Source of the DNA: Brevinematales bacterium
GTDB taxonomy: Bacteria; Spirochaetota; Brevinematia; Brevinematales; JAOACQ01
Reading direction: 5' to 3'
Length of the DNA stretch: 43,724 nt
NCBI GenBank assembly: GCA_020052515.1
Contig: JAGVOW010000002.1
Span: 1 to 43,724, forward strand
The stretch's first letter is position 1. The number at the start of each line of letters is the position of its first letter. A program made the position numbers and the translations under genes. The notes under the pieces are model-generated. The model did no database searches. It was given only the letters and a program-made list of their open reading frames with translations, and was not told the origin of the DNA. Shown here one piece after another: positions 1 through 43,724 of this stretch.

Positions 1-36
1 ATAAATAAAGTCTGGATCAAGACAGGCTTCTTCCAG

Positions 37-405
37 ATGATAAAGTTCGGCCTGGTAGGAGTTTTAAACACCGCGATCGGCTGGGGAACTTTTTTTGTTT
101 TATTTCATTTCTTTTCTTTCAATTATGTCCTGGCGAATACAATCGGCAATATTCTGGGCTTTATCAATAGCTTTTTCTGGAACAAGTTCTGGACTTTTAA
201 AAGCAAAGATTTACGCTATGAAGAAATGTTCCTCTTTATCCTTGTGTTTCTTATCTGCCTGGCAGTCCAGTCTGGAATTCTCATTGTTTTTAAAGAAGTC
301 TTTAAATGGAACGTTTACCTTTCTCAAATTATCTCAATGGTTATTTATACCTTGCTGAATTTCATCGGCAATAAATGGTTCACTTTCCGGAAAGCAAAAG
401 CCTGA
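37..405 (+). CDS. GtrA-like family membrane protein (5' end probably truncated by the window edge)
   Basis: IKFGLVGVLNTAIGWGTFFVLF...NTIGNILGFINSFFWNKFWTF...NFIGNKWFTFR is typical of GtrA. The frame stays open upstream to base 1 (INKVWIKTGFFQ-M). Confidence 0.85.
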   Translation: MIKFGLVGVLNTAIGWGTFFVLFHFFSFNYVLANTIGNILGFINSFFWNKFWTFKSKDLRYEEMFLFILVFLICLAVQSGILIVFKEVFKWNVYLSQIISMVIYTLLNFIGNKWFTFRKAKA

Positions 406-414
406 GAAAGAGAT

Positions 415-600
415 TTATAATTTTTTAATTTCATTGAATATTTCTCTTGCGCTCTTATCACCGAATATTTTATCTTTTAGATGTACATAATCTTCTTTCT
501 GAGATAAAATCTCTTTTATAAAAAGGGGAAATACTTTAATAAGGCTAAAGGTTAAAAGCCTTTTCTTCCTTTTCTTTTTCCCTTTCCCAGGCTTTTGAAA
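415..600 (-). pseudogene. Start-less ORF fragment, possible C-terminal gene remnant
   Basis: Minus-strand open frame without Met: FQKPGKGKKKRKKRLLTFSLIKVFPLFIKEILSQKEDYVHLKDKIFGDKSAREIFNEIKKL*. The C-terminal half looks protein-like; the family is not identified. Confidence 0.35.
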
Positions 601-611
601 TCAACCGCGCA

Positions 612-726
612 GGGTTTTAAATGAATATCAAACAGAGCGAGCAAACCACGGATGGTTTGCGCTCCGGCGGTCCAAACAAGGATGTTTATAAAGCCGGGCG
701 CGACGTTTGATATTCATTTAAAACCC
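612..726. repeat. MITE-like or structured element: perfect 22-bp inverted repeat enclosing nested hairpins
   Basis: gggttttaaatgaatatcaaac (612-633) and gtttgatattcatttaaaaccc (705-726) are perfect reverse complements. Inside is gcaaacca-cgga-tggtttgc (641-660). Confidence 0.8.
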
Positions 727-749
727 GCAGCAAATGTTTCAACAGCGAC

Positions 750-765
750 GCGCTCTCCCGAGCGC
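750..765. repeat. Short hairpin gcgctc-tccc-gagcgc
   Basis: 6-bp perfect stem with a 4-nt loop, immediately downstream of the 22-bp inverted repeat. Confidence 0.6.
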
Positions 766-934
766 AACTTCCTATCTCTTTAACTAAATTCGATTTTTTC
801 ATAACTTTTTCATAAAACTTTTGACATTACCCTTTTGTATATTTAAGATATTAGAAAAAAAAGCAAACGGAAAGCCCGCTCTATCTGGCTGGAAAAGCGT
901 TTGTAAAGTACAGGAAAGAAAAAGGAAACAAAAC

Positions 935-1033
935 ATTGGCGCGCATGCGGCGGCAACTGGAATGACATTGATTACAAGAGATATCCAGAGAGTTCGTTAT
1001 TATTTCCCAACGGTTGAACTTGTTAGCCCATAG
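935..1033 (+). pseudogene. C-terminal remnant of a VapC-type PIN toxin
   Basis: Within the 70-aa ORF: IGAHAAATGMTLITRDIQRVRYYFPTVELVSP* resembles the VapC C-terminus (A..A....LvTRD.rr.r.yFP...li.P). The N-terminal part of the ORF does not look like PIN. Confidence 0.55.
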
Positions 1034-1118
1034 TAGCTCAGCCTTTTTTGCCTATTTTTGGGAGCTATTATATACTATTTTGTCTTAAGGAAGAAAAGCT
1101 TTTAAGGAAGGTTAAGAT

Positions 1119-2462
1119 ATGATTCTGAATAATCGAATCGGCTTGAAGAAACTGCTGGTTGTATTTGCCGCGATCATTCCCGTTGTTTATTTTTTCTGGA
1201 ATATTTATTTATACGCTGTCAATATTCCTTATAATGATGATTATGATACTGTTCTGGGGTTTATGAACCAGTTTTTAAATGTGGGGGGGCTGAAAGAACG
1301 CTTTGATCTCATTGCGGGGTTCTGGAATGACCATCGTATAGCTTTTAATAAAATAGTCATCGTGCTTATGTATCATTTGATGGGGCACATTGATTTAAAG
1401 TGGATGATTTTTATAGGGAATATGGGACTGATTTTGATGATCGGGAGTGTTTTTCAGGCTTTTAAAGTTAAAGAAAACAAGCTTCTTTATTTTTTACCCG
1501 CGCTGTTTCTTTTCTTTCAGCCGATGTACAGCGAAAATAGTTTTTTTGCAGGAGCATCTTTAGCAAATTTTTACATTATGTCTTTTGGTTTTTTAGCTCT
1601 GGCGCTTTTGGACAAAAAAGAACAAAAAGTGGTTTCTTTTATTTTAGCAATTCTTTTCGCGGTACTTTCTTATTATAGCCTGAGAAATGGCATTCTGTTC
1701 TTGGCTTTAGGTTTGTTTATGCTTATCTGCCAGAAAAGGTACCGGGAAAGCGCTTTTTGGTTATTCATTTCCATAGCGGCAGTTTTATTTTACCAATTCT
1801 ATAATGTCGCGCCGGCAGCCGCTTCAGCTTCTTCCATTCTCTCACTTTTTAATCTAAAGGAAATGGGCAGGATGATCCTTTATTTTCTGGTATTCATAGG
1901 CAATAATTTTGGGACTAATTTTTCAGCCGGCTTTGGAAGCGGCAGTAAACTGGTACAAATGGTATCCTTCTCGATGCCTGTGATCGCCGGCTTAGCTGTC
2001 TGCGCCTACTTTATTTATTTGACTATTATGCAGTATTACAAGAAAAATATTTTGATCTATTCGCTTTTTCTTTTTCTTTTCTTAACAGCGATTGGCGCCT
2101 CAATAGATAGGGGAGGCGGCCTGGGATTAGCGCAAGCGCTTACTTCCCGTTACAGGGTTGTAACCATCCTGTTTTTTATTCTGGCCTATTTGTCATTCAT
2201 AGAAATATTGGGAAACAGCGCGCGGAAAAAAGTTTTCTTTACTATCGCGATGGTTCTCAGCTTGCTGTTTAATGTTTTCACTTACATCTTAAAGCACAAA
2301 CCCATTCTAAGACATAGAGAAGACCTGATTGTCAGTTTAAATCAATGGATAAAAATAGGCAAAGGCATTGATCCATTGGCGCATCCCTATCCTTATGCCA
2401 ATGTTATTCTGGCAGAATCTGTAAAGAGAAAAATTTATATTGTTCCTGAAATTAGAAAATAG
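1119..2462 (+). CDS. Polytopic membrane protein of unknown function, possibly envelope-polysaccharide related
   Basis: 447-aa ORF with many hydrophobic segments and an N-terminal NIPYNDDYD motif, just upstream of an O-antigen ligase-like gene. Confidence 0.7.
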   Translation: MILNNRIGLKKLLVVFAAIIPVVYFFWNIYLYAVNIPYNDDYDTVLGFMNQFLNVGGLKERFDLIAGFWNDHRIAFNKIVIVLMYHLMGHIDLKWMIFIGNMGLILMIGSVFQAFKVKENKLLYFLPALFLFFQPMYSENSFFAGASLANFYIMSFGFLALALLDKKEQKVVSFILAILFAVLSYYSLRNGILFLALGLFMLICQKRYRESAFWLFISIAAVLFYQFYNVAPAAASASSILSLFNLKEMGRMILYFLVFIGNNFGTNFSAGFGSGSKLVQMVSFSMPVIAGLAVCAYFIYLTIMQYYKKNILIYSLFLFLFLTAIGASIDRGGGLGLAQALTSRYRVVTILFFILAYLSFIEILGNSARKKVFFTIAMVLSLLFNVFTYILKHKPILRHREDLIVSLNQWIKIGKGIDPLAHPYPYANVILAESVKRKIYIVPEIRK

Positions 2463-3762
2463 TAAAATACAGAGAACCGTCTTCAAAGCCGGATTTTTTG
2501 CGGAGCTTTCCATGCGAGCATTAACAACCATTCTTCTTGCTTTATTTCTCTTTTTTAATCTGGCCCTTCCGAAAGCGGGAACAAAGCTGGAAGGATTTCC
2601 TCTTTATGTTTCCTTAATTCTGGCTTTCGTGTTTTTTGTGCTGATCATTCCTCGTTTCTTGAAAAACAGGAAAGAAAATGAAGAAAAAATGGTTTTGTTT
2701 TATCTACTTTCTTTGATCATTGTTTTTTTTGCGGCTTTTTTCTTTTTTCATTCTTTTCATCCGGATTTTAAAAAAAATTTTCTGGACGTGACGCCTTATA
2801 TGGTTTCTTTATCCTCCATTTTATTTGTTTTTCTGGCCAAATATTATCCTGATCGATTGACATTATTCAAAAATGTGATTGTTTGCTCTTTTTTCTTAGT
2901 GACAGTTTATGGATTGATCCAGAAAATATTCGGCGATGTCAGGACTATTATACCAGGCATTACTTTTAATTTCGCTGAGGCTATGGAAATTCCTTCCTGG
3001 TGGAGTAAAAGCAGTTATATCCATTCCCTGAACTATATCAAGCTTACTTCAACCTATCAAAACGGAAACCTTTTTGGTGTAAATTACCTGGTGCTGTCCT
3101 GGTTTGCCTTTTATTTCTTAAAAGAAAAAAAAGATTGGATTGGGCGGATCGTTTTAATTCTTTCTCTTGCCGCTTTTGTCATCATTTGTTTACTCACTGC
3201 TTCCAGGACTGTTTACGCGGGCCTCTTGTTTTCCGGAATTCTTTTTTATATTCTTATGTTCAAAAAAGTCCTATTGGACAATAAAAAACAGAATGAAAAA
3301 AAATACTTTTTTATTGGATTATCAATCGCGGCCTTGATTTTAGCGATAAGCGCCTTTCTCTTTATCCCGCCCTTGAACTATTCTATTTCCAAAATCATAT
3401 TTAAGACGCGTTTGCTTGAAGACCCAAGAATAAAGGAGTTAACCTCTTATTTAAAGTACATCTGGGACCACAAACTGCTTTTTCAATTTCTTTTCGGCTC
3501 CATTTGGAACCCTCTCCCGGCTGGTGGAGCTTATGAAGTAACACTCGCAGCGATATTTGTGAAATTTGGCCTGATATTTACCAGTGTTTTTATCACGGCA
3601 ATTGTTTACTTTATGAAGAAACTAAAACTAACGTTATATAATATCGGTTTGTTTTCTTATATTTTCGCTTCTCTCTTTGACGGGGCGTTCTGGCTTCCTC
3701 CGACACCGATCAATTTTTTTACTTTCCTGGGAGTCAGTTATTTTGCCTTGAGGCAGAAATAA
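2440..3762 (+). CDS. O-antigen ligase/polymerase-like membrane protein
   Basis: About 12 hydrophobic segments and a Wzy/WaaL-like region (TYQNGNLFGVNYLVLSWFAFYFL...LTASRTVYAGLLFSGILFYILMF). An alternative start at ATG 2512 would remove the overlap with the upstream ORF. Confidence 0.6.
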   Translation: MFLKLENSKIQRTVFKAGFFAELSMRALTTILLALFLFFNLALPKAGTKLEGFPLYVSLILAFVFFVLIIPRFLKNRKENEEKMVLFYLLSLIIVFFAAFFFFHSFHPDFKKNFLDVTPYMVSLSSILFVFLAKYYPDRLTLFKNVIVCSFFLVTVYGLIQKIFGDVRTIIPGITFNFAEAMEIPSWWSKSSYIHSLNYIKLTSTYQNGNLFGVNYLVLSWFAFYFLKEKKDWIGRIVLILSLAAFVIICLLTASRTVYAGLLFSGILFYILMFKKVLLDNKKQNEKKYFFIGLSIAALILAISAFLFIPPLNYSISKIIFKTRLLEDPRIKELTSYLKYIWDHKLLFQFLFGSIWNPLPAGGAYEVTLAAIFVKFGLIFTSVFITAIVYFMKKLKLTLYNIGLFSYIFASLFDGAFWLPPTPINFFTFLGVSYFALRQK

Positions 3763-5014
3763 CTTCCCTCTCTATTCTGAAAAAAACTAAAATCCCTACA
3801 AAGACCACAAGAGACAAAAGCGCGGGAGTTCCCCAGAAAATGGAATAGCTGTTCATTCTTATCCCATTCTGTATAGCGCCCGAAACATCCATCATTCTAC
3901 CTGCGCAAAAATTCCCCAGGAATCCGGCCAGGCCTCCTGTAATTAAACAAAAAAGCTGCTGAACCCCTGCCCGGGAGCGCTTATCGCAATGGCTGTCCAG
4001 ATAAATGAATAGGGCTGTAAAGAAGAAGGTATAAGTCAAGCCATGGACGCTGATCGCTGCAATCAGAAGAAAAGGCGGGCCTCCAAGGGCAAAAACGGCA
4101 AAACGAAATACTTCCAGGAAAACACCCAACAGAAAGACTTTTTTAAAACCGAAGCGGGATAAAGAAAACCCCAAAAGGCTCATAGCAAATATCTCCGGAA
4201 TCTGGCCGATGCTTAAGACAGGCAGGATCGATTGTTCGCTGAAGCCAAGCTGTTTCAGGAACGGGGCTCCTCCAAAGAAATAAAAGCGGTCCACAAAAGA
4301 AATAAAAAATCCGAACAGCGATAAAATCAAAATTTCCGGCCGGATTAAAACTTTGAGCGACTCAACAGGAATAAAACTCGGCTTTTCTTTCCGCCCATCA
4401 TAGCTGGAAGGAATTGTCCAGACATAAAAACCCAATAGGAGCGAAGAAACAGCGGAAATCTTAAAAATATCCGGCAAGTGAGAAGAAACCCCGCCGTTAT
4501 TTCTCAGCCAGAGCAGGCCAAACACCCATGCGGCGGCTATCCAGCCGATGGTGCCCCAAACGCGTATCCTACCGAAATGATTCCGATTGTCCGGCAAGTG
4601 ATGAAAAGTAACCGCATTTGCCAGAGCCATAGTCGGCCCAAATGTAAGTGAATAAGCCATGTAAACAAAAAGAACCGGCAAAAAATCTTTCTGAAAAGAA
4701 AATAAAATAATGATTACCGCGGAGAATAGATGCAAAAACCCAAGAAGCTTTTCGGCGCTTAAAACCCTGTCCGCGATAAAAGCGCCGATAAGGGGGGAAA
4801 CAAAAGCGGCAATGGAAGACATGCTCAGGATAATTCCAATTTGGGCGCCGCTGAAATGCAGGTAATCCTTTAAATACAAGCTCATAACCGGCATTGTCGC
4901 GCCCGGCACAAAAAGCTGTAGAAACATAACAATGGAAAGCGACACCTTCATGCCTTGTTTCAAAAAGGGCTTCCCGCGATCAAAATTTTCACTCCGCAGG
5001 GAGGCAACAAGCAT
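3734..5014 (-). CDS. Major facilitator superfamily transporter (MFS_1-like / nucleoside-H+ symporter-like)
   Basis: QLFVPGATMPVMSLYLKDYLHFSGAQIGIILSMSSIAAFVSPLIGAFIADR, FGRIRVWGTIGWIAAAWVFG. True start is probably the ATG at 4951 (MKVSLSIV), just after the upstream GH13 stop. Confidence 0.85.
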   Translation of the reverse strand: MLVASLRSENFDRGKPFLKQGMKVSLSIVMFLQLFVPGATMPVMSLYLKDYLHFSGAQIGIILSMSSIAAFVSPLIGAFIADRVLSAEKLLGFLHLFSAVIIILFSFQKDFLPVLFVYMAYSLTFGPTMALANAVTFHHLPDNRNHFGRIRVWGTIGWIAAAWVFGLLWLRNNGGVSSHLPDIFKISAVSSLLLGFYVWTIPSSYDGRKEKPSFIPVESLKVLIRPEILILSLFGFFISFVDRFYFFGGAPFLKQLGFSEQSILPVLSIGQIPEIFAMSLLGFSLSRFGFKKVFLLGVFLEVFRFAVFALGGPPFLLIAAISVHGLTYTFFFTALFIYLDSHCDKRSRAGVQQLFCLITGGLAGFLGNFCAGRMMDVSGAIQNGIRMNSYSIFWGTPALLSLVVFVGILVFFRIEREVISASRQNN

Positions 5015-6261
5015 TCATAAGGGTAAGCTGAATTTATAGGTGAGGATGATTCCAGATCCATAGAAATATCAAAGAACGCCGCGTTTTTACCAAAAACATC
5101 AGCTAAAGCAGGAAAGATAAAGCTCTGGGATTGTTTCCAGTCCCGATTGAATAGAAAAAGCGCCTTCTCCTTTTTATTCCTGGATGTTTTCAAAAAAGCA
5201 AGGGCAAGGGGATTGTTCTGCTTCCAGATTTCATTGTCGCTTTCTTCGTTAAAAATAGAGTGTCTTTTTTTTGTTTCATTCACCCTTTTGATAAAAGCGG
5301 TTAAATCATAATTCACGCTTTCCCAGTCAGAAGGCAGCATCTTGACCACATCCAGCTTTTTCTGAAATCCGTATTCAAAGCCGATAGGCATCATCCAGCC
5401 GGATGAAAAAAAAGCGGTAAAAATAGTTTTTTGCTTTACTCCTTCCTGATTGTTCTTCAGCTCTTCCGAAAGGCGTATGGTGTCATGCGACTCAGGAAAA
5501 GCAATGGAAGAGACCACTTTTTTGGTTTGGTTGTATTGTTCCAGAAGCCAGGGGGCTTCCATGTCCCACCACTTGGCGCTGTTAAAAATAAAATCAAAAC
5601 CTGCTTTTGCCAGCGCTAATGTCTGCTCAATATTGCATCCCAGGCTCTCCGCGAAAAAGACGCTGTCTTTCCTCTTTTTTTTAGCCGCCTGGATCAAATA
5701 AACCCAGAGTTCCGCCGGCACTTGATAAGCCGCGTCGGCCCGGAAGCCATCAAAACCCTTCTCAATGTAAAAAATTACCAGGTTTTTCCAGTACTCCCAG
5801 ATACTATATTTATCCGGTGAATTCTCATTATCCACTTCAGCCAGGTCGCCCCACTCTATCCATTGTCCATTGTCCCATGCGCCGGGGCTTTTGATCCCGC
5901 CTTTTTCGTTTTTTTTATACCAGTTAGGGTGCTCTTCGGTAAAGGGATGATCCTTTGCCGTGTGATTGATCACCAGATCCATCATTACTTTGAGTCCCCT
6001 TTTATGCGCTTCGGAAAGCATGGCTTCCATTTGTTTCATAGGGGAAAGCACGGAAGACTCATCCATGAAAAGCGGATTAAAAGCATAATAATCCTTCGGC
6101 GCGTAAAGGCTTCCTGAAAATCCCGGATAATGAAAAGGATTGATGTAAATCCAATTAAAACCCATAGCTTTGATTCGATCAAAATGGCTATTCCAATCCT
6201 GCATTCTCCCCACAAGGCGGGGAAAAAGATTGTAAATTCGCGCGCCTTCCTGAGCGGGCAT
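4960..6261 (-). CDS. Alpha-amylase family (GH13) glycoside hydrolase / glucan-active enzyme
   Basis: Conserved GH13 regions: DLVINHTAKDHPF, GFDGFRADAAYQVP, FFAESLG, FPESHDT. Confidence 0.88.
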   Translation of the reverse strand: MPAQEGARIYNLFPRLVGRMQDWNSHFDRIKAMGFNWIYINPFHYPGFSGSLYAPKDYYAFNPLFMDESSVLSPMKQMEAMLSEAHKRGLKVMMDLVINHTAKDHPFTEEHPNWYKKNEKGGIKSPGAWDNGQWIEWGDLAEVDNENSPDKYSIWEYWKNLVIFYIEKGFDGFRADAAYQVPAELWVYLIQAAKKKRKDSVFFAESLGCNIEQTLALAKAGFDFIFNSAKWWDMEAPWLLEQYNQTKKVVSSIAFPESHDTIRLSEELKNNQEGVKQKTIFTAFFSSGWMMPIGFEYGFQKKLDVVKMLPSDWESVNYDLTAFIKRVNETKKRHSIFNEESDNEIWKQNNPLALAFLKTSRNKKEKALFLFNRDWKQSQSFIFPALADVFGKNAAFFDISMDLESSSPINSAYPYECLLPPCGVKILIAGSPF

Positions 6262-6273
6262 AGTTGCTCCTGG

Positions 6274-6308
6274 AACCCCCTAACCCCCTTAAAGGGGGGT
6301 AGGGGGTT
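6274..6308. repeat. Interspersed palindromic repeat, C-rich/G-rich family (copy 1)
   Basis: aaccccctaaccccctt-a-aaggggggtagggggtt, 16/17 arm match, in the 50-bp gap between two co-directional genes. Confidence 0.8.
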
Positions 6309-6311
6309 TGT

Positions 6312-7781
6312 CTATGTACTTCGTTTAAAGGAAATTTTCTTGCTGCTGAGGTCAAGAAAGAATTGGAACCCAAAAGCGATATAAAGAGCGACTAGCATAT
6401 GAAGCTGGGAAAAATATTGTTTTTGAATAGAAACTGTCCTGGCATCCAGCTCAAAATTAATAAACTTAATGAGCAATAAGTAAGAAATAACAATAGCTCC
6501 CAGTGTATAAAGCGCCCATATCTTTTCTTTGAAGAAAAGGTAAACTATCCCTATTCCCGCTACAAGCATGTGGATCCATGTAAACTGCTTCACAGTCACC
6601 ATAAATACCGTGTAAATCTGCCCCGCCAGATTATTGAACTCACTGCCGCCGCCCATTCCGTATTGCTTACGCATCATATGATTAAAAAGGACATCCAATG
6701 TCTGCGTATCTCCCCAGCTTAAGGGTTTTGGATCCGGAAGAGGCGCTAAAGCCTTTGCCCTAACCACCAGGTAAAGATAAAGAGTCATGGCAAAAATAAA
6801 CATCCAGATTCCCATCATAAAGGTTTCAAAAAACTGGTCTACCCAATTTTCCTCTGTTTTTAGAAGCTTGACGGAAATAGTATAAACCGTCAGGGAAACA
6901 GGAAGTAGAAAAATAGAGAATAAAATAGCGGGAACATTTTCCTTGAGAATGAGGGGATTAAAATAGCCCTGCTTCAAAAACAAATAAACGCTTACCGCTC
7001 CTGCGATGAGAAACAGGATAACCACCGTGCTTCTCTGTTTTAATTCCTGCTTAAATTTCTCATTTCTGTCAGAAACAACAATAAACATTGCCGCCGGCAG
7101 AAGAATCAATGCATAAGCGACTATAAACCACAAGGGCAATTGATGCACTGTAAGGGAAAGCCCCATCATAAATCCCAGCAATATAGTCATCCTCTGCGCG
7201 AAATGAAGCTTACCCTCATTTCGAAAAGCAATGATTTCTTCGTACCATCGTATCATTACCAAAAGCAAGGCCGCTACCAACAGGGTATTCAGAGGATAAA
7301 ATTTCCCGCTCCCGGAGGATTGGCTCCAGAAATCATAAGAAAAAGCAAAAACAAAAGCCGCCGCGATAGCGGGAAGATGGACAAACAAGGATATTTTCCC
7401 TTCATCCCGGTTGAGCCCCAAAAGTTTCAACATAAACAGAAAGAAAAAGAAAATCGCAAAGGCACCGCTAAAAGCCACATAAACATTGACCCGGTAAGCA
7501 ATGTCGCCTATGGGTAAAAAAGTAAAAAGCTTTCCAATAATACCGTAAAGCGGATATCCAGGCGGATGACACGCTCCCATATTGTAAACTTCGGTCGTCA
7601 ATTCCCCGCTGTCTCCCGCGATCACGCTGGGAGCCTGCGTCTTGATAAAAACGAAGAGGACAATCAAAGTAATAATAAAAGCAATCACAATATCAAACCA
7701 TTTAATGCGGTAAGGCTGATAGCCTTTTGGATAAATAGATTCAAACAGCTTACTTTCAACCGATGCGTTTGTCATGCTCAT
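6312..7781 (-). CDS. DUF2723 (TMEM260-like) multi-pass membrane protein
   Basis: PSVIAGDSGELTTEVYNMGACHPPGYPLYGIIGKLFTFLPIGDIAYRVN is the DUF2723 N-terminal signature. Confidence 0.88.
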   Translation of the reverse strand: MSMTNASVESKLFESIYPKGYQPYRIKWFDIVIAFIITLIVLFVFIKTQAPSVIAGDSGELTTEVYNMGACHPPGYPLYGIIGKLFTFLPIGDIAYRVNVYVAFSGAFAIFFFFLFMLKLLGLNRDEGKISLFVHLPAIAAAFVFAFSYDFWSQSSGSGKFYPLNTLLVAALLLVMIRWYEEIIAFRNEGKLHFAQRMTILLGFMMGLSLTVHQLPLWFIVAYALILLPAAMFIVVSDRNEKFKQELKQRSTVVILFLIAGAVSVYLFLKQGYFNPLILKENVPAILFSIFLLPVSLTVYTISVKLLKTEENWVDQFFETFMMGIWMFIFAMTLYLYLVVRAKALAPLPDPKPLSWGDTQTLDVLFNHMMRKQYGMGGGSEFNNLAGQIYTVFMVTVKQFTWIHMLVAGIGIVYLFFKEKIWALYTLGAIVISYLLLIKFINFELDARTVSIQKQYFSQLHMLVALYIAFGFQFFLDLSSKKISFKRST

Positions 7782-7854
7782 AAATTCTCATCCTCCATTA
7801 CAGGCTTCAACACGTTCACACAACCCATTGGCTAAGATTTTAAAACAGTTTTGT

Positions 7855-7885
7855 TTTTTTTGCAAAAAAAGCCTTTCGTTCAGGC
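7855..7885 (-). terminator. Candidate intrinsic terminator downstream of vapC (minus strand)
   Basis: Minus strand reads GCCTgaacgaaAGGCTTTTTTTGCAAAAAAA: a short 4-bp stem followed by 7 T. The stem is weak. Confidence 0.35.
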
Positions 7886-7899
7886 AGTCAAAAAAGAGA

Positions 7900-8298
7900 C
7901 TATCGAATCCAGAAGATTTTTATCTCTTCTTCGACCTCTTTTAGCTCTTTGTCGCTGGTAACCAATTCTCCCTTTTTTAACTTCGCAAGAGCGGCGGCAA
8001 AGCAATCAGCATAAGACATCTTTTTGTGCGCTTTGTAAATCGCTGCTTGTTTGGTAATTTCTAAATCAACAGAAATAAACTCTATAGGAAAAGTCTCTAT
8101 TACTTTTAATATCTTTGCGGTTTCTTCCTGGCCGTATTCCCGTAACAGCACATAAAGAACTTCGCCAAGATTAATCGTAGTCATAAGCAAATCGCTATCT
8201 CCCTCTGCGGCTTTAATAAATAAATTTTTTACCTTTTCATAGCCTTCTTCTTTTTCAAGATAAGCCATCAAAGCACAAGCATCAATTATTTTGACCAT
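7900..8298 (-). CDS. vapC: VapC-type PIN domain toxin
   Basis: MVKIIDACALMAYLEKEEGYE...NLGEVLYVLLRE...KMSYADCFAAALAKLKKGELVTSDKELKEVE has PIN acidic motifs. Confidence 0.88.
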   Translation of the reverse strand: MVKIIDACALMAYLEKEEGYEKVKNLFIKAAEGDSDLLMTTINLGEVLYVLLREYGQEETAKILKVIETFPIEFISVDLEITKQAAIYKAHKKMSYADCFAAALAKLKKGELVTSDKELKEVEEEIKIFWIR

Positions 8299-8537
8299 TT
8301 TTCATCCTCAATTTCTCTTTCGTTTGAACGTTCTTTAAGAATAGCCTTCGTCAACTTTCCCTTTGTTTTCAAAATACCCGCCATCTTTTCAAAATATTCG
8401 CTAGTTAAAGGCTGAAGAATAATCTGATCCTCTCTATCCACTATGTTTAACTTTGTTCCTTTCTTAATATGGTGCTTTCTTCTGATCTTCGATGGAATCA
8501 CGATCTGGCCCTTCATGGTTACAATAGCCGTATTCAT
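8286..8537 (-). CDS. vapB: AbrB/MazE/SpoVT-like antitoxin (VapB)
   Basis: MNTAIVTMKGQIVIPSKIRRKHHIKKGTKLNIVDREDQIILQP. The ORF-track start at 8588 lies in the promoter; ATG 8537 follows an AAGGAGG ribosome binding site. Confidence 0.85.
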   Translation of the reverse strand: MNTAIVTMKGQIVIPSKIRRKHHIKKGTKLNIVDREDQIILQPLTSEYFEKMAGILKTKGKLTKAILKERSNEREIEDEKWSK

Positions 8538-8559
8538 AACGATTCCTCCTTCTTCGGAA

Positions 8560-8588
8560 AGTATAACACGAATGTTAATGTAAGTCAA
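8560..8588 (-). promoter_or_regulatory. Sigma70-type promoter of vapBC with overlapping inverted-repeat operator candidate
   Basis: Minus strand: TTGACT-N17-TATACT. taaca-ttcg-tgtta (8564-8577) overlaps the spacer and -10. Confidence 0.75.
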
Positions 8589-8613
8589 TATAAAAAAGTA
8601 ATACGTCTAAACT

Positions 8614-8651
8614 AACTCCCCTCCTTAATAAGGAGGGGCTAGGGGGTGGTT
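8614..8651. repeat. Interspersed palindromic repeat, C-rich/G-rich family (copy 2), possibly acting as uvrA terminator
   Basis: cccctcctta-t-taaggagggg perfect 10-bp arms (8618-8638) plus the ctagggggtggtt extension, seven bases downstream of the uvrA stop. Confidence 0.8.
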
Positions 8652-8657
8652 GGGTAA

Positions 8658-11507: not shown

Positions 11508-11510
11508 ATA

Positions 11511-11906
11511 TTATTCTTTTATAAAACCTTTTTCTTTGGAGGCCATTAAGATTCCTATTGTGCCCGTCACTTTTATTTTTAATGGTTGAGCGTATTTTCT
11601 AGCCAGGTAATCGTCTATGATACATAAGTCCGCTTGAAGTTCCCGATAAAGAATCATTACTTCGACTTCCCCCTTATGAAGGGCTGTTGAAAAAAGATTT
11701 TCGGCTTCAATGTTTTTTACATTTTTTACTTCAATATATTTCTCTCCATCGATCGCTGAGGAAATAATATTAGAATGTTCTTTAAAATAAATTTCATCAT
11801 AGACAGCTTTTGGAATAATGACTTTTTGATATAACTTTTCCAGTAAATGAAGCTGATTAACAGAAGCTAAGGAAATAATCGGGCTGGAATCAACAATTAC
11901 TTGCAT
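11511..11906 (-). CDS. DUF3368-type PIN-like toxin
   Basis: [39 protein letters not shown]...[28 protein letters not shown]...[15 protein letters not shown]. Confidence 0.85.
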
Positions 11907-12095
11907 TCGAAAAATCTTTTCTTAATTCTTCTTCTGTGGATTCCGCCAAAGCGGCGCATTGCCCCAATGAAAGCTTCTTTTCCTTATAATAAGTTAAAGC
12001 GGCAATTCTTTTTAGCTCTCTTTAAAATCATCTTCTGTTTCACGCAAAGAGAGAAGAATCTCTTCGGGAAATGTCAGGCTCACCACAGCATCCAT
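11890..12095 (-). pseudogene. UPF0175-type antitoxin split by a single-base frameshift
   Basis: Minus strand frame A (12012-12095): MDAVVSLTFPEEILLSLRETEDDFKES*. Frame B (11890-12015): [41 protein letters not shown]. Together they reconstitute a UPF0175-like protein. Confidence 0.75.
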
Positions 12096-12130
12096 GTTTT
12101 TTACCTCGTAAATGAAATCTCTTTTTAAAA

Positions 12131-31550: not shown

Positions 31551-31629
31551 AGGGGGTTAAGAAATTTGACACAGGGGTAAATAAATGATATATTTTTTAA
31601 AAAGAGATTTCATTTACGAGGTAAAAAAC

Positions 31630-31835
31630 ATGGATGCTGTGGTGAGCCTGACATTTCCCGAAGAGATTCTTCTCTCTTTGCGTGAAACAGAAGATGATTT
31701 TAAAGAGAGCTAAAAAGAATTGCCGCTTTAACTTATTATAAGGAAAAGAAGCTTTCATTGGGGCAATGCGCCGCTTTGGCGGAATCCACAGAAGAAGAAT
31801 TAAGAAAAGATTTTTCGAATGCAAGTAATTGTTGA
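31630..31835 (+). pseudogene. Frameshifted UPF0175-type antitoxin (mirror copy)
   Basis: Frame A 31630-31713 and frame B 31710-31835. Confidence 0.75.
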
Positions 31836-32214
31836 TTCCAGCCCGATTATTTCCTTAGCTTCTGTTAATCAGCTTCATTTACTGGAAAAGTTATATCAAA
31901 AAGTCATTATTCCAAAAGCTGTCTATGATGAAATTTATTTTAAAGAACATTCTAATATTATTTCCTCAGCGATCGATGGAGAGAAATATATTGAAGTAAA
32001 AAATGTAAAAAACATTGAAGCCGAAAATCTTTTTTCAACAGCCCTTCATAAGGGGGAAGTCGAAGTAATGATTCTTTATCGGGAACTTCAAGCGGACTTA
32101 TGTATCATAGACGATTACCTGGCTAGAAAATACGCTCAACCATTAAAAATAAAAGTGACGGGCACAATAGGAATCTTAATGGCCTCCAAAGAAAAAGGTT
32201 TTATAAAAGAATAA
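31819..32214 (+). CDS. DUF3368-type toxin (mirror copy)
   Basis: Identical protein to 11511-11906. Confidence 0.85.
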
Positions 32215-32217
32215 TAT

Positions 32218-35067: not shown

Positions 35068-35187
35068 TTACCCAACCACCCCCTAGCCCCTCCTTATTAA
35101 GGAGGGGAGTTAGTTTAGACGTATTACTTTTTTATATTGACTTACATTAACATTCGTGTTATACTTTCCGAAGAAGGAGGAATCGTT

Positions 35188-35439
35188 ATGAATACGGCTA
35201 TTGTAACCATGAAGGGCCAGATCGTGATTCCATCGAAGATCAGAAGAAAGCACCATATTAAGAAAGGAACAAAGTTAAACATAGTGGATAGAGAGGATCA
35301 GATTATTCTTCAGCCTTTAACTAGCGAATATTTTGAAAAGATGGCGGGTATTTTGAAAACAAAGGGAAAGTTGACGAAGGCTATTCTTAAAGAACGTTCA
35401 AACGAAAGAGAAATTGAGGATGAAAAATGGTCAAAATAA
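35188..35439 (+). CDS. vapB: AbrB/MazE-like antitoxin (mirror copy)
   Basis: Mirror of 8286-8537. Confidence 0.85.
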   Translation: MNTAIVTMKGQIVIPSKIRRKHHIKKGTKLNIVDREDQIILQPLTSEYFEKMAGILKTKGKLTKAILKERSNEREIEDEKWSK

Positions 35440-35825
35440 TTGATGCTTGTGCTTTGATGGCTTATCTTGAAAAAGAAGAAGGCTATGAAAAGGTAAAAAA
35501 TTTATTTATTAAAGCCGCAGAGGGAGATAGCGATTTGCTTATGACTACGATTAATCTTGGCGAAGTTCTTTATGTGCTGTTACGGGAATACGGCCAGGAA
35601 GAAACCGCAAAGATATTAAAAGTAATAGAGACTTTTCCTATAGAGTTTATTTCTGTTGATTTAGAAATTACCAAACAAGCAGCGATTTACAAAGCGCACA
35701 AAAAGATGTCTTATGCTGATTGCTTTGCCGCCGCTCTTGCGAAGTTAAAAAAGGGAGAATTGGTTACCAGCGACAAAGAGCTAAAAGAGGTCGAAGAAGA
35801 GATAAAAATCTTCTGGATTCGATAG
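35427..35825 (+). CDS. vapC: VapC toxin (mirror copy)
   Basis: Identical protein to 7900-8298. Confidence 0.88.
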   Translation: MVKIIDACALMAYLEKEEGYEKVKNLFIKAAEGDSDLLMTTINLGEVLYVLLREYGQEETAKILKVIETFPIEFISVDLEITKQAAIYKAHKKMSYADCFAAALAKLKKGELVTSDKELKEVEEEIKIFWIR

Positions 35826-35943
35826 TCTCTTTTTTGACTGCCTGAACGAAAGGCTTTTTTTGCAAAAAAAACAAAACTGTTTTAAAATCTTAGCCAATGG
35901 GTTGTGTGAACGTGTTGAAGCCTGTAATGGAGGATGAGAATTT

Positions 35944-37413
35944 ATGAGCATGACAAACGCATCGGTTGAAAGTAAGCTGTTTGAATCTATTTATCCAAAA
36001 GGCTATCAGCCTTACCGCATTAAATGGTTTGATATTGTGATTGCTTTTATTATTACTTTGATTGTCCTCTTCGTTTTTATCAAGACGCAGGCTCCCAGCG
36101 TGATCGCGGGAGACAGCGGGGAATTGACGACCGAAGTTTACAATATGGGAGCGTGTCATCCGCCTGGATATCCGCTTTACGGTATTATTGGAAAGCTTTT
36201 TACTTTTTTACCCATAGGCGACATTGCTTACCGGGTCAATGTTTATGTGGCTTTTAGCGGTGCCTTTGCGATTTTCTTTTTCTTTCTGTTTATGTTGAAA
36301 CTTTTGGGGCTCAACCGGGATGAAGGGAAAATATCCTTGTTTGTCCATCTTCCCGCTATCGCGGCGGCTTTTGTTTTTGCTTTTTCTTATGATTTCTGGA
36401 GCCAATCCTCCGGGAGCGGGAAATTTTATCCTCTGAATACCCTGTTGGTAGCGGCCTTGCTTTTGGTAATGATACGATGGTACGAAGAAATCATTGCTTT
36501 TCGAAATGAGGGTAAGCTTCATTTCGCGCAGAGGATGACTATATTGCTGGGATTTATGATGGGGCTTTCCCTTACAGTGCATCAATTGCCCTTGTGGTTT
36601 ATAGTCGCTTATGCATTGATTCTTCTGCCGGCGGCAATGTTTATTGTTGTTTCTGACAGAAATGAGAAATTTAAGCAGGAATTAAAACAGAGAAGCACGG
36701 TGGTTATCCTGTTTCTCATCGCAGGAGCGGTAAGCGTTTATTTGTTTTTGAAGCAGGGCTATTTTAATCCCCTCATTCTCAAGGAAAATGTTCCCGCTAT
36801 TTTATTCTCTATTTTTCTACTTCCTGTTTCCCTGACGGTTTATACTATTTCCGTCAAGCTTCTAAAAACAGAGGAAAATTGGGTAGACCAGTTTTTTGAA
36901 ACCTTTATGATGGGAATCTGGATGTTTATTTTTGCCATGACTCTTTATCTTTACCTGGTGGTTAGGGCAAAGGCTTTAGCGCCTCTTCCGGATCCAAAAC
37001 CCTTAAGCTGGGGAGATACGCAGACATTGGATGTCCTTTTTAATCATATGATGCGTAAGCAATACGGAATGGGCGGCGGCAGTGAGTTCAATAATCTGGC
37101 GGGGCAGATTTACACGGTATTTATGGTGACTGTGAAGCAGTTTACATGGATCCACATGCTTGTAGCGGGAATAGGGATAGTTTACCTTTTCTTCAAAGAA
37201 AAGATATGGGCGCTTTATACACTGGGAGCTATTGTTATTTCTTACTTATTGCTCATTAAGTTTATTAATTTTGAGCTGGATGCCAGGACAGTTTCTATTC
37301 AAAAACAATATTTTTCCCAGCTTCATATGCTAGTCGCTCTTTATATCGCTTTTGGGTTCCAATTCTTTCTTGACCTCAGCAGCAAGAAAATTTCCTTTAA
37401 ACGAAGTACATAG
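35944..37413 (+). CDS. DUF2723 membrane protein (mirror copy)
   Basis: Identical protein to 6312-7781. Confidence 0.88.
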   Translation: MSMTNASVESKLFESIYPKGYQPYRIKWFDIVIAFIITLIVLFVFIKTQAPSVIAGDSGELTTEVYNMGACHPPGYPLYGIIGKLFTFLPIGDIAYRVNVYVAFSGAFAIFFFFLFMLKLLGLNRDEGKISLFVHLPAIAAAFVFAFSYDFWSQSSGSGKFYPLNTLLVAALLLVMIRWYEEIIAFRNEGKLHFAQRMTILLGFMMGLSLTVHQLPLWFIVAYALILLPAAMFIVVSDRNEKFKQELKQRSTVVILFLIAGAVSVYLFLKQGYFNPLILKENVPAILFSIFLLPVSLTVYTISVKLLKTEENWVDQFFETFMMGIWMFIFAMTLYLYLVVRAKALAPLPDPKPLSWGDTQTLDVLFNHMMRKQYGMGGGSEFNNLAGQIYTVFMVTVKQFTWIHMLVAGIGIVYLFFKEKIWALYTLGAIVISYLLLIKFINFELDARTVSIQKQYFSQLHMLVALYIAFGFQFFLDLSSKKISFKRST

Positions 37414-37463
37414 ACAAACCCCCTACCCCCCTTTAAGGGGGTTAGGGGGTTCCAGGAGCAACT

Positions 37464-38765
37464 ATGCCCGCTCAGGAAGGCGCGCGAATTTACAATCTTT
37501 TTCCCCGCCTTGTGGGGAGAATGCAGGATTGGAATAGCCATTTTGATCGAATCAAAGCTATGGGTTTTAATTGGATTTACATCAATCCTTTTCATTATCC
37601 GGGATTTTCAGGAAGCCTTTACGCGCCGAAGGATTATTATGCTTTTAATCCGCTTTTCATGGATGAGTCTTCCGTGCTTTCCCCTATGAAACAAATGGAA
37701 GCCATGCTTTCCGAAGCGCATAAAAGGGGACTCAAAGTAATGATGGATCTGGTGATCAATCACACGGCAAAGGATCATCCCTTTACCGAAGAGCACCCTA
37801 ACTGGTATAAAAAAAACGAAAAAGGCGGGATCAAAAGCCCCGGCGCATGGGACAATGGACAATGGATAGAGTGGGGCGACCTGGCTGAAGTGGATAATGA
37901 GAATTCACCGGATAAATATAGTATCTGGGAGTACTGGAAAAACCTGGTAATTTTTTACATTGAGAAGGGTTTTGATGGCTTCCGGGCCGACGCGGCTTAT
38001 CAAGTGCCGGCGGAACTCTGGGTTTATTTGATCCAGGCGGCTAAAAAAAAGAGGAAAGACAGCGTCTTTTTCGCGGAGAGCCTGGGATGCAATATTGAGC
38101 AGACATTAGCGCTGGCAAAAGCAGGTTTTGATTTTATTTTTAACAGCGCCAAGTGGTGGGACATGGAAGCCCCCTGGCTTCTGGAACAATACAACCAAAC
38201 CAAAAAAGTGGTCTCTTCCATTGCTTTTCCTGAGTCGCATGACACCATACGCCTTTCGGAAGAGCTGAAGAACAATCAGGAAGGAGTAAAGCAAAAAACT
38301 ATTTTTACCGCTTTTTTTTCATCCGGCTGGATGATGCCTATCGGCTTTGAATACGGATTTCAGAAAAAGCTGGATGTGGTCAAGATGCTGCCTTCTGACT
38401 GGGAAAGCGTGAATTATGATTTAACCGCTTTTATCAAAAGGGTGAATGAAACAAAAAAAAGACACTCTATTTTTAACGAAGAAAGCGACAATGAAATCTG
38501 GAAGCAGAACAATCCCCTTGCCCTTGCTTTTTTGAAAACATCCAGGAATAAAAAGGAGAAGGCGCTTTTTCTATTCAATCGGGACTGGAAACAATCCCAG
38601 AGCTTTATCTTTCCTGCTTTAGCTGATGTTTTTGGTAAAAACGCGGCGTTCTTTGATATTTCTATGGATCTGGAATCATCCTCACCTATAAATTCAGCTT
38701 ACCCTTATGAATGCTTGTTGCCTCCCTGCGGAGTGAAAATTTTGATCGCGGGAAGCCCTTTTTGA
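37464..38765 (+). CDS. GH13 alpha-amylase family protein (mirror copy)
   Basis: Identical protein to 4960-6261. Confidence 0.88.
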   Translation: MPAQEGARIYNLFPRLVGRMQDWNSHFDRIKAMGFNWIYINPFHYPGFSGSLYAPKDYYAFNPLFMDESSVLSPMKQMEAMLSEAHKRGLKVMMDLVINHTAKDHPFTEEHPNWYKKNEKGGIKSPGAWDNGQWIEWGDLAEVDNENSPDKYSIWEYWKNLVIFYIEKGFDGFRADAAYQVPAELWVYLIQAAKKKRKDSVFFAESLGCNIEQTLALAKAGFDFIFNSAKWWDMEAPWLLEQYNQTKKVVSSIAFPESHDTIRLSEELKNNQEGVKQKTIFTAFFSSGWMMPIGFEYGFQKKLDVVKMLPSDWESVNYDLTAFIKRVNETKKRHSIFNEESDNEIWKQNNPLALAFLKTSRNKKEKALFLFNRDWKQSQSFIFPALADVFGKNAAFFDISMDLESSSPINSAYPYECLLPPCGVKILIAGSPF

Positions 38766-39991
38766 AACAAGGCATGAAGGTGTCGCTTTCCATTGTTATG
38801 TTTCTACAGCTTTTTGTGCCGGGCGCGACAATGCCGGTTATGAGCTTGTATTTAAAGGATTACCTGCATTTCAGCGGCGCCCAAATTGGAATTATCCTGA
38901 GCATGTCTTCCATTGCCGCTTTTGTTTCCCCCCTTATCGGCGCTTTTATCGCGGACAGGGTTTTAAGCGCCGAAAAGCTTCTTGGGTTTTTGCATCTATT
39001 CTCCGCGGTAATCATTATTTTATTTTCTTTTCAGAAAGATTTTTTGCCGGTTCTTTTTGTTTACATGGCTTATTCACTTACATTTGGGCCGACTATGGCT
39101 CTGGCAAATGCGGTTACTTTTCATCACTTGCCGGACAATCGGAATCATTTCGGTAGGATACGCGTTTGGGGCACCATCGGCTGGATAGCCGCCGCATGGG
39201 TGTTTGGCCTGCTCTGGCTGAGAAATAACGGCGGGGTTTCTTCTCACTTGCCGGATATTTTTAAGATTTCCGCTGTTTCTTCGCTCCTATTGGGTTTTTA
39301 TGTCTGGACAATTCCTTCCAGCTATGATGGGCGGAAAGAAAAGCCGAGTTTTATTCCTGTTGAGTCGCTCAAAGTTTTAATCCGGCCGGAAATTTTGATT
39401 TTATCGCTGTTCGGATTTTTTATTTCTTTTGTGGACCGCTTTTATTTCTTTGGAGGAGCCCCGTTCCTGAAACAGCTTGGCTTCAGCGAACAATCGATCC
39501 TGCCTGTCTTAAGCATCGGCCAGATTCCGGAGATATTTGCTATGAGCCTTTTGGGGTTTTCTTTATCCCGCTTCGGTTTTAAAAAAGTCTTTCTGTTGGG
39601 TGTTTTCCTGGAAGTATTTCGTTTTGCCGTTTTTGCCCTTGGAGGCCCGCCTTTTCTTCTGATTGCAGCGATCAGCGTCCATGGCTTGACTTATACCTTC
39701 TTCTTTACAGCCCTATTCATTTATCTGGACAGCCATTGCGATAAGCGCTCCCGGGCAGGGGTTCAGCAGCTTTTTTGTTTAATTACAGGAGGCCTGGCCG
39801 GATTCCTGGGGAATTTTTGCGCAGGTAGAATGATGGATGTTTCGGGCGCTATACAGAATGGGATAAGAATGAACAGCTATTCCATTTTCTGGGGAACTCC
39901 CGCGCTTTTGTCTCTTGTGGTCTTTGTAGGGATTTTAGTTTTTTTCAGAATAGAGAGGGAAGTTATTTCTGCCTCAAGGCAAAATAACTGA
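38711..39991 (+). CDS. MFS transporter (mirror copy)
   Basis: Identical protein to 3734-5014. Confidence 0.85.
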   Translation: MLVASLRSENFDRGKPFLKQGMKVSLSIVMFLQLFVPGATMPVMSLYLKDYLHFSGAQIGIILSMSSIAAFVSPLIGAFIADRVLSAEKLLGFLHLFSAVIIILFSFQKDFLPVLFVYMAYSLTFGPTMALANAVTFHHLPDNRNHFGRIRVWGTIGWIAAAWVFGLLWLRNNGGVSSHLPDIFKISAVSSLLLGFYVWTIPSSYDGRKEKPSFIPVESLKVLIRPEILILSLFGFFISFVDRFYFFGGAPFLKQLGFSEQSILPVLSIGQIPEIFAMSLLGFSLSRFGFKKVFLLGVFLEVFRFAVFALGGPPFLLIAAISVHGLTYTFFFTALFIYLDSHCDKRSRAGVQQLFCLITGGLAGFLGNFCAGRMMDVSGAIQNGIRMNSYSIFWGTPALLSLVVFVGILVFFRIEREVISASRQNN

Positions 39992-41285
39992 CTCCCAGGA
40001 AAGTAAAAAAATTGATCGGTGTCGGAGGAAGCCAGAACGCCCCGTCAAAGAGAGAAGCGAAAATATAAGAAAACAAACCGATATTATATAACGTTAGTTT
40101 TAGTTTCTTCATAAAGTAAACAATTGCCGTGATAAAAACACTGGTAAATATCAGGCCAAATTTCACAAATATCGCTGCGAGTGTTACTTCATAAGCTCCA
40201 CCAGCCGGGAGAGGGTTCCAAATGGAGCCGAAAAGAAATTGAAAAAGCAGTTTGTGGTCCCAGATGTACTTTAAATAAGAGGTTAACTCCTTTATTCTTG
40301 GGTCTTCAAGCAAACGCGTCTTAAATATGATTTTGGAAATAGAATAGTTCAAGGGCGGGATAAAGAGAAAGGCGCTTATCGCTAAAATCAAGGCCGCGAT
40401 TGATAATCCAATAAAAAAGTATTTTTTTTCATTCTGTTTTTTATTGTCCAATAGGACTTTTTTGAACATAAGAATATAAAAAAGAATTCCGGAAAACAAG
40501 AGGCCCGCGTAAACAGTCCTGGAAGCAGTGAGTAAACAAATGATGACAAAAGCGGCAAGAGAAAGAATTAAAACGATCCGCCCAATCCAATCTTTTTTTT
40601 CTTTTAAGAAATAAAAGGCAAACCAGGACAGCACCAGGTAATTTACACCAAAAAGGTTTCCGTTTTGATAGGTTGAAGTAAGCTTGATATAGTTCAGGGA
40701 ATGGATATAACTGCTTTTACTCCACCAGGAAGGAATTTCCATAGCCTCAGCGAAATTAAAAGTAATGCCTGGTATAATAGTCCTGACATCGCCGAATATT
40801 TTCTGGATCAATCCATAAACTGTCACTAAGAAAAAAGAGCAAACAATCACATTTTTGAATAATGTCAATCGATCAGGATAATATTTGGCCAGAAAAACAA
40901 ATAAAATGGAGGATAAAGAAACCATATAAGGCGTCACGTCCAGAAAATTTTTTTTAAAATCCGGATGAAAAGAATGAAAAAAGAAAAAAGCCGCAAAAAA
41001 AACAATGATCAAAGAAAGTAGATAAAACAAAACCATTTTTTCTTCATTTTCTTTCCTGTTTTTCAAGAAACGAGGAATGATCAGCACAAAAAACACGAAA
41101 GCCAGAATTAAGGAAACATAAAGAGGAAATCCTTCCAGCTTTGTTCCCGCTTTCGGAAGGGCCAGATTAAAAAAGAGAAATAAAGCAAGAAGAATGGTTG
41201 TTAATGCTCGCATGGAAAGCTCCGCAAAAAATCCGGCTTTGAAGACGGTTCTCTGTATTTTACTATTTTCTAATTTCAGGAACAA
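39963..41285 (-). CDS. O-antigen ligase/polymerase-like protein (mirror copy)
   Basis: Identical protein to 2440-3762. Confidence 0.6.
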   Translation of the reverse strand: MFLKLENSKIQRTVFKAGFFAELSMRALTTILLALFLFFNLALPKAGTKLEGFPLYVSLILAFVFFVLIIPRFLKNRKENEEKMVLFYLLSLIIVFFAAFFFFHSFHPDFKKNFLDVTPYMVSLSSILFVFLAKYYPDRLTLFKNVIVCSFFLVTVYGLIQKIFGDVRTIIPGITFNFAEAMEIPSWWSKSSYIHSLNYIKLTSTYQNGNLFGVNYLVLSWFAFYFLKEKKDWIGRIVLILSLAAFVIICLLTASRTVYAGLLFSGILFYILMFKKVLLDNKKQNEKKYFFIGLSIAALILAISAFLFIPPLNYSISKIIFKTRLLEDPRIKELTSYLKYIWDHKLLFQFLFGSIWNPLPAGGAYEVTLAAIFVKFGLIFTSVFITAIVYFMKKLKLTLYNIGLFSYIFASLFDGAFWLPPTPINFFTFLGVSYFALRQK

Positions 41286-42606
41286 TATAAATTTTTCTCT
41301 TTACAGATTCTGCCAGAATAACATTGGCATAAGGATAGGGATGCGCCAATGGATCAATGCCTTTGCCTATTTTTATCCATTGATTTAAACTGACAATCAG
41401 GTCTTCTCTATGTCTTAGAATGGGTTTGTGCTTTAAGATGTAAGTGAAAACATTAAACAGCAAGCTGAGAACCATCGCGATAGTAAAGAAAACTTTTTTC
41501 CGCGCGCTGTTTCCCAATATTTCTATGAATGACAAATAGGCCAGAATAAAAAACAGGATGGTTACAACCCTGTAACGGGAAGTAAGCGCTTGCGCTAATC
41601 CCAGGCCGCCTCCCCTATCTATTGAGGCGCCAATCGCTGTTAAGAAAAGAAAAAGAAAAAGCGAATAGATCAAAATATTTTTCTTGTAATACTGCATAAT
41701 AGTCAAATAAATAAAGTAGGCGCAGACAGCTAAGCCGGCGATCACAGGCATCGAGAAGGATACCATTTGTACCAGTTTACTGCCGCTTCCAAAGCCGGCT
41801 GAAAAATTAGTCCCAAAATTATTGCCTATGAATACCAGAAAATAAAGGATCATCCTGCCCATTTCCTTTAGATTAAAAAGTGAGAGAATGGAAGAAGCTG
41901 AAGCGGCTGCCGGCGCGACATTATAGAATTGGTAAAATAAAACTGCCGCTATGGAAATGAATAACCAAAAAGCGCTTTCCCGGTACCTTTTCTGGCAGAT
42001 AAGCATAAACAAACCTAAAGCCAAGAACAGAATGCCATTTCTCAGGCTATAATAAGAAAGTACCGCGAAAAGAATTGCTAAAATAAAAGAAACCACTTTT
42101 TGTTCTTTTTTGTCCAAAAGCGCCAGAGCTAAAAAACCAAAAGACATAATGTAAAAATTTGCTAAAGATGCTCCTGCAAAAAAACTATTTTCGCTGTACA
42201 TCGGCTGAAAGAAAAGAAACAGCGCGGGTAAAAAATAAAGAAGCTTGTTTTCTTTAACTTTAAAAGCCTGAAAAACACTCCCGATCATCAAAATCAGTCC
42301 CATATTCCCTATAAAAATCATCCACTTTAAATCAATGTGCCCCATCAAATGATACATAAGCACGATGACTATTTTATTAAAAGCTATACGATGGTCATTC
42401 CAGAACCCCGCAATGAGATCAAAGCGTTCTTTCAGCCCCCCCACATTTAAAAACTGGTTCATAAACCCCAGAACAGTATCATAATCATCATTATAAGGAA
42501 TATTGACAGCGTATAAATAAATATTCCAGAAAAAATAAACAACGGGAATGATCGCGGCAAATACAACCAGCAGTTTCTTCAAGCCGATTCGATTATTCAG
42601 AATCAT
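41263..42606 (-). CDS. Polytopic membrane protein (mirror copy)
   Basis: Identical protein to 1119-2462. Confidence 0.7.
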   Translation of the reverse strand: MILNNRIGLKKLLVVFAAIIPVVYFFWNIYLYAVNIPYNDDYDTVLGFMNQFLNVGGLKERFDLIAGFWNDHRIAFNKIVIVLMYHLMGHIDLKWMIFIGNMGLILMIGSVFQAFKVKENKLLYFLPALFLFFQPMYSENSFFAGASLANFYIMSFGFLALALLDKKEQKVVSFILAILFAVLSYYSLRNGILFLALGLFMLICQKRYRESAFWLFISIAAVLFYQFYNVAPAAASASSILSLFNLKEMGRMILYFLVFIGNNFGTNFSAGFGSGSKLVQMVSFSMPVIAGLAVCAYFIYLTIMQYYKKNILIYSLFLFLFLTAIGASIDRGGGLGLAQALTSRYRVVTILFFILAYLSFIEILGNSARKKVFFTIAMVLSLLFNVFTYILKHKPILRHREDLIVSLNQWIKIGKGIDPLAHPYPYANVILAESVKRKIYIVPEIRK

Positions 42607-42691
42607 ATCTTAACCTTCCTTAAAAGCTTTTCTTCCTTAAGACAAAATAGTATATAATAGCTCCCAAAAATAGGCAAAAAAGGCTGAGCTA

Positions 42692-42790
42692 CTATGGGCT
42701 AACAAGTTCAACCGTTGGGAAATAATAACGAACTCTCTGGATATCTCTTGTAATCAATGTCATTCCAGTTGCCGCCGCATGCGCGCCAAT
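42692..42790 (-). pseudogene. VapC C-terminal remnant (mirror copy)
   Basis: Mirror of 935-1033. Confidence 0.55.
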
Positions 42791-42998
42791 GTTTTGTTTC
42801 CTTTTTCTTTCCTGTACTTTACAAACGCTTTTCCAGCCAGATAGAGCGGGCTTTCCGTTTGCTTTTTTTTCTAATATCTTAAATATACAAAAGGGTAATG
42901 TCAAAAGTTTTATGAAAAAGTTATGAAAAAATCGAATTTAGTTAAAGAGATAGGAAGTTGCGCTCGGGAGAGCGCGTCGCTGTTGAAACATTTGCTGC

Positions 42999-43113
42999 GG
43001 GTTTTAAATGAATATCAAACGTCGCGCCCGGCTTTATAAACATCCTTGTTTGGACCGCCGGAGCGCAAACCATCCGTGGTTTGCTCGCTCTGTTTGATAT
43101 TCATTTAAAACCC
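42999..43113. repeat. MITE-like nested hairpin element (mirror copy)
   Basis: Mirror of 612-726. Confidence 0.8.
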
Positions 43114-43319
43114 TGCGCGGTTGATTTCAAAAGCCTGGGAAAGGGAAAAAGAAAAGGAAGAAAAGGCTTTTAACCTTTAGCCTTATTAAAGTATTTCCCC
43201 TTTTTATAAAAGAGATTTTATCTCAGAAAGAAGATTATGTACATCTAAAAGATAAAATATTCGGTGATAAGAGCGCAAGAGAAATATTCAATGAAATTAA
43301 AAAATTATAAATCTCTTTC

Positions 43320-43688
43320 TCAGGCTTTTGCTTTCCGGAAAGTGAACCATTTATTGCCGATGAAATTCAGCAAGGTATAAATAACCATTGAGATAATTTG
43401 AGAAAGGTAAACGTTCCATTTAAAGACTTCTTTAAAAACAATGAGAATTCCAGACTGGACTGCCAGGCAGATAAGAAACACAAGGATAAAGAGGAACATT
43501 TCTTCATAGCGTAAATCTTTGCTTTTAAAAGTCCAGAACTTGTTCCAGAAAAAGCTATTGATAAAGCCCAGAATATTGCCGATTGTATTCGCCAGGACAT
43601 AATTGAAAGAAAAGAAATGAAATAAAACAAAAAAAGTTCCCCAGCCGATCGCGGTGTTTAAAACTCCTACCAGGCCGAACTTTATCAT
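43320..43688 (-). CDS. GtrA-like protein (mirror copy, 5' end open to the window edge)
   Basis: Identical protein to 37-405. Confidence 0.85.
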   Translation of the reverse strand: MIKFGLVGVLNTAIGWGTFFVLFHFFSFNYVLANTIGNILGFINSFFWNKFWTFKSKDLRYEEMFLFILVFLICLAVQSGILIVFKEVFKWNVYLSQIISMVIYTLLNFIGNKWFTFRKAKA

Positions 43689-43724
43689 CTGGAAGAAGCC
43701 TGTCTTGATCCAGACTTTATTTAT

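Follow-up and report, generated by a model that had tools for sequence, protein, structure and literature searches.

The stretch of DNA analysed here (the window, 43,724 nucleotides) is the whole of contig G000:C95 in the draft genome of a Brevinematales bacterium (114 contigs, 2,615,017 bases, estimated 99.6% complete), and from end to end it is one perfect palindrome. We consider, with a probability of about 0.93, that this palindrome was made by a fold-back in a de Bruijn assembly graph, in which a single 21.9-kb piece of chromosome was written twice, and that it does not reflect the biology of the organism. The contig belongs to a known type of artefact, and its trigger, a short palindromic repeat located at the axis of symmetry, is now identified.

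Symmetry of the contig and its axis

Over all 43,724 bases, the window and its reverse complement show 0 mismatches, and the sequence contains neither an N nor a spacer. The symmetry axis falls between positions 21862 and 21863. A chance origin of this symmetry is excluded. A preliminary description of the sequence had reported two spacer-less arms of 21,862 bp with the symmetry point exactly mid-window, and both statements are borne out, although the identical ends and the central axis follow simply from the fact that the window is a complete palindromic contig. A natural inverted repeat of very large size would be expected to have unique flanks on its two sides; here the palindrome fills the contig, and the outer ends show no match to any other contig terminus. 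An entire contig identical to its reverse complement, with no spacer and no unique flank, is what characterizes a fold-back contig. The window is divided as follows.

1..21862, forward strand: left arm, the sole independent sequence of the window, 21.9 kb of ordinary chromosome and an exact reverse-complement match to the right arm
21849..21876, no strand: fold point, a 28-bp perfect palindrome (GTAGAGGCGCACGGCCGTGCGCCTCTAC), member of a dispersed family
21863..43724, reverse strand: right arm, mirror of 1-21862 with 0 mismatches to the left-arm reverse complement, judged to be an assembly duplicate

The centre of symmetry had been placed correctly from the outset, but the 28-bp dispersed palindrome lying on it had gone unremarked. 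Further copies of GTAGAGGCGCACGGCCGTGCGCCTCTAC, with 2-3 mismatches, were detected in contigs C65, C67, C100 and C5. These relatives are located 1 base from the end of C65 and 6 bases from the end of C67, and in internal positions in C100 and C5, so that the axis of the window is a repeat type at which the same assembly also breaks elsewhere. The possibility that the centre is a telomere or an origin was rejected, given that the same repeat is present inside ordinary contigs. For a graph to fold back, the axis has to lie on a natural palindrome whose length is at least k-1 for some k used in the assembly, and the palindrome at the axis is long enough for the k values that we infer were used.

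Probable fold-back in the assembly graph

To place the window in its assembly, every other contig was surveyed over its first 20 kb, or over its full length, and the longer contigs also over their last 2 kb. A second exact whole-contig palindrome was found in the same draft, contig C85 (15,406 b; G000:C85:1-15406, locus L187). It is centred on AACAAGGGGCTTAAGCCCCTTGTT, a dispersed palindrome different from that of the window, whose 16-bp core occurs at four other loci. Both ends of C85 share the same 99 bases with one single terminus of C51, which is incompatible with a real duplication bearing two flanks, unless C51 was duplicated too. By eye, these 99 bases appear 5S-rRNA-like. Besides these two, no whole-palindrome contig was detected among the other readable contigs; C2, C64, C69 and C71 gave only an apparent palindrome because their ends read as N. 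Contig C47, which starts in the same palindrome as the centre of C85 and shares 36 b with its arm, was considered as the true neighbour of C85, but the join is unproven, since the flank is in part a repeat family, as is evident from the copies in C33 and C50.

Breaks at palindromes are not limited to these contigs. At 13 of 216 other termini, the contig end cuts a perfect palindrome of 16 bp or more, against 0.09 expected (scaled from 1.56 million interior cut points). Together with C85, these termini show that the behaviour proposed for the window is present elsewhere in the assembly. In addition, 61 of the 220 contig termini have exactly 99 bases in common with another terminus, and such overlaps are the mark of de Bruijn assembly with a final k of 99 or 100. 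Some versions of MEGAHIT run from k 21 to 99. IDBA-UD has been used with k from 20 to 100 in published work (PMC4879347). In contig C108 (24,834 b; L209 and L264), too, the terminal 99 bases are the same at both ends but inverted, with 149 shared 25-mers, so that this contig may lie between inverted copies of a repeat.

The fold could be reproduced in a toy bidirected graph composed of the last 3 kb of the window arm (A), the 28-bp palindrome (P) and a far side of random sequence (B). As long as B was included, the graph was interrupted at the palindrome at k of up to 29. Once B was left out, every k tested from 20 to 29 gave a single contig of length 2A+P, an exact palindrome, and at k of at least 31 the plain linear sequence was recovered.

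According to this model, the true locus would consist of arm A (1-21848), followed by P (28 bp or slightly more) and by an unassembled or unbinned B, which probably starts with kdpC. In a small-k round (about 20-29) of a multi-k assembly, P would be its own reverse complement, and its exit node would lead both to B and to the reverse complement of A, rc(A). If the B branch was missing or had been pruned, A-P-rc(A) would be the only unbranched path, and its output would be an exact spacer-less palindrome ending where A began. This palindrome would then have been passed into the larger-k rounds as finished sequence. In this scheme, what we infer is the identity of the assembler, the small-k round as a step and the cause of B's loss. 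Our literature searches returned no usable paper on a named palindromic k-mer mechanism.

Contigs of this type have been reported before. In drafts of Mycobacterium bovis, 81 whole-contig palindromes were judged to be assembly errors and removed (PMC9455707), and palindromic contigs of Synechococcus single-cell genomes were likewise judged to be assembly artefacts and removed (PMC12755884). The M. bovis contigs resemble the window in that the entire contig is one palindrome with identical genes in reverse complement; the trigger was not named in that paper (PMC9455707), whereas for the window a short, dispersed palindrome has been located at the axis and the mechanism has been reproduced in a graph. 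The Synechococcus genomes came from amplified single cells, in which chimeric molecules are also possible (PMC12755884).

A chimeric library molecule had indeed been named, alongside an assembler fold-back, as a source of the symmetry. In that case, fold-back molecules, formed by snap-back at the palindrome while the DNA was amplified or the library prepared, would have been among the reads, and the assembler would have followed them faithfully. An exact mirror and a preference for palindromes would also be expected from this process, and palindromic contigs are known from whole-genome-amplified single cells (PMC12755884). With such an origin, too, the window would be an artefact. Nevertheless, such molecules are not needed, as the graph alone reproduces the contig, and they would have to make up the dominant path over the locus, and this in two contigs. 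That so many contig ends fall inside palindromes is predicted by the graph, and a chimera would not need a dispersed perfect palindrome as its fold site. Moreover, a loop or arms of unequal length are the usual traces of a chimera. The evidence thus points to the assembly graph and away from a library chimera, which we regard as improbable.

The remaining alternative is a genuine giant palindrome, produced by a recent inverted duplication, an inverted dimer or a replicated hairpin end, with the 28-bp palindrome as its seed. In bacteria, long palindromes that lack a spacer are unstable. The replication terminus of Lactobacillus delbrueckii ssp. bulgaricus does carry inverted repeats of 38-76 kb, for which an ancestral spacer of 8 bp has been inferred and fold-back priming at short inverted repeats has been proposed as the route (PMC5345009). 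These large repeats resemble the window in extending over tens of kb and in their supposed start at short inverted repeats; in contrast, they have unique flanks and their present-day copies have central regions of at least 1 kb, whereas the window has neither flank nor spacer and is one of two cases in one draft. None was found in the 1373 other chromosomes of that survey, and a real large inverted repeat is expected to collapse to one copy in a short-read assembly (PMC5345009). Two whole-contig cases in one draft would require two events, each exactly filling its contig and leaving no unique flank, and we regard two natural palindrome events as far less likely than a fold in the graph.

Nor does the gene content favour a replicon with palindromic ends. 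Among the 15 arm proteins searched (Pfam or NCBIfam; small open reading frames lay outside the search), neither a telomere resolvase nor a replication protein was detected, which agrees with the absence of visible candidates noted earlier, and the replicon-type genes expected of a hairpin-telomere replicon or an inverted dimer are thus lacking in this set. The housekeeping genes are ordinary. We therefore hold a genuine palindrome to be highly improbable, and the same applies to its more specific form, in which a repetitive extragenic palindrome (REP)-like sequence of 28 bp would have seeded a recent spacer-less palindrome of 43.7 kb and the same process would have yielded the 15.4-kb one.

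The kdp genes and the missing far side

The fold point coincides with the end of a kdp gene pair.

18088..19791, forward strand: kdpA (NCBIfam kdpA, 676 bits)
19801..21852, forward strand: kdpB, full length, 683 aa (NCBIfam kdpB, 976 bits, profile positions 3-674 of 675)

The kdpB stop codon, TAG, sits within the first bases of the fold palindrome (21849-21876). In the closest KdpB locus found, from Methanomethylovorans (L014, 69% identity), kdpC and then kdpD are located directly after kdpB. Searches of the source genome gave no match to KdpC or KdpD, and the only close KdpB matches in it are the two mirror copies. The sequence expected past the fold point is, in other words, the sequence absent from a genome estimated as 99.6% complete, and the apparent loss of kdpC is probably not real. 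The second palindromic contig, the breaks at palindromes, the signature of a k near 100 and the lack of kdpC at the fold together support the view, already favoured in the preliminary description, that the palindrome is an artefact and not biology.

Several points weigh against a graph fold-back. The position of the axis alone is not decisive, given that short inverted repeats can be the starting point of natural giant palindromes as well (PMC5345009). A half-palindrome search of the genome for the continuation of the kdpB end, allowing 2 mismatches, returned only the known family copies. Furthermore, kdp genes are mostly lacking in the surveyed relatives, and the organism may really have lost kdpC.

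C65 and C67 were considered as partners of the kdpB end and were rejected, as they carry a different core variant. No close kdpB was found among the 40 relatives searched, and consequently synteny is unable to place the missing side. The 69% KdpB identity to a methanogen draft and the absence of a close KdpB from these relatives suggest that kdpAB was acquired by horizontal transfer.

Genes of the arm, palindromic repeats and consequences

Using Pfam and NCBIfam, the genes of the left arm were assigned as gtrA-like, Wzy_C-like ligase, MFS transporter, amylase-like, TMEM260-like, a VapC-like/AbrB-like pair, uvrA, a FlgD_ig/OmpA-type surface protein, kdpA and kdpB. Both ends of the window had been described as stopping inside the same gtrA-like open reading frame. 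They do stop at the same point, but a truncation of the gene is not clear: from the ATG at position 37 it encodes a protein of 122 aa that spans the complete Pfam GtrA domain (profile positions 1-117 of 117).

The arm also carries two copies of another palindromic family.

12726..12757, no strand: dispersed palindrome with core TAGGCGCGGTTAATTAACCGCGCCTA, 32 bp, centred at 12741
13680..13707, no strand: second copy of the TAGGCGCGGTTAATTAACCGCGCCTA family in the arm, a 28-bp palindrome centred at 13693

The TAGGCGCGGTTAATTAACCGCGCCTA core is present in 62 exact copies in the genome, counting the mirror copies of the window, and its occurrence in the arm shows that the arm belongs to the source genome. 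Many copies lie inside longer, locus-specific inverted repeats: away from contig ends, 16 of 34 show a symmetric extension of at least 4 bases, against about 0.13 expected with random flanks. These extensions possibly arose by insertion into terminator stems or by palindrome correction through template switching. As for AACAAGGGGCTTAAGCCCCTTGTT, it reads NKGLKPLV on either strand and is found in frames open for 20-174 codons in C33 (near 7223), at the end of C50, in C97 (near 14980), at the start of C47 and at the centre of C85.

Five Y1_Tnp (PF01797) genes were detected in the genome (L269-L273), at C54:7311-7667, C26:125-349, C26:14869-15177, C33:6781-7080 and C47:164-460. The C54 gene is located between two copies of the TATAGGCGAGG palindrome. 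After the first C26 gene come palindromes at 393 and 805, and a AAGGGGCTTAAGCCCCTT palindrome lies near the genes in C33 and C47. This arrangement is REP/RAYT-like: as in genomes with REP-type repeats beside Y1 (RAYT-like) transposase genes, many short perfect palindromes coexist here with five PF01797 genes, some of them adjoining. The short palindromic repeats account for the folding of the assembly; they do not in themselves constitute the finding.

As an artefact, the window doubles about 15 genes, uvrA and kdpAB among them, and the draft gains about 21.9 kb of spurious length from this contig and about 7.7 kb from C85. The earlier advice to count the loci of the window once is supported, the right arm being an assembly duplicate. 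Comparison of a contig with its own reverse complement exposes an error of this type at once, and genomes that are rich in perfect palindromic repeats, as this one is, may be prone to the same fold-back.
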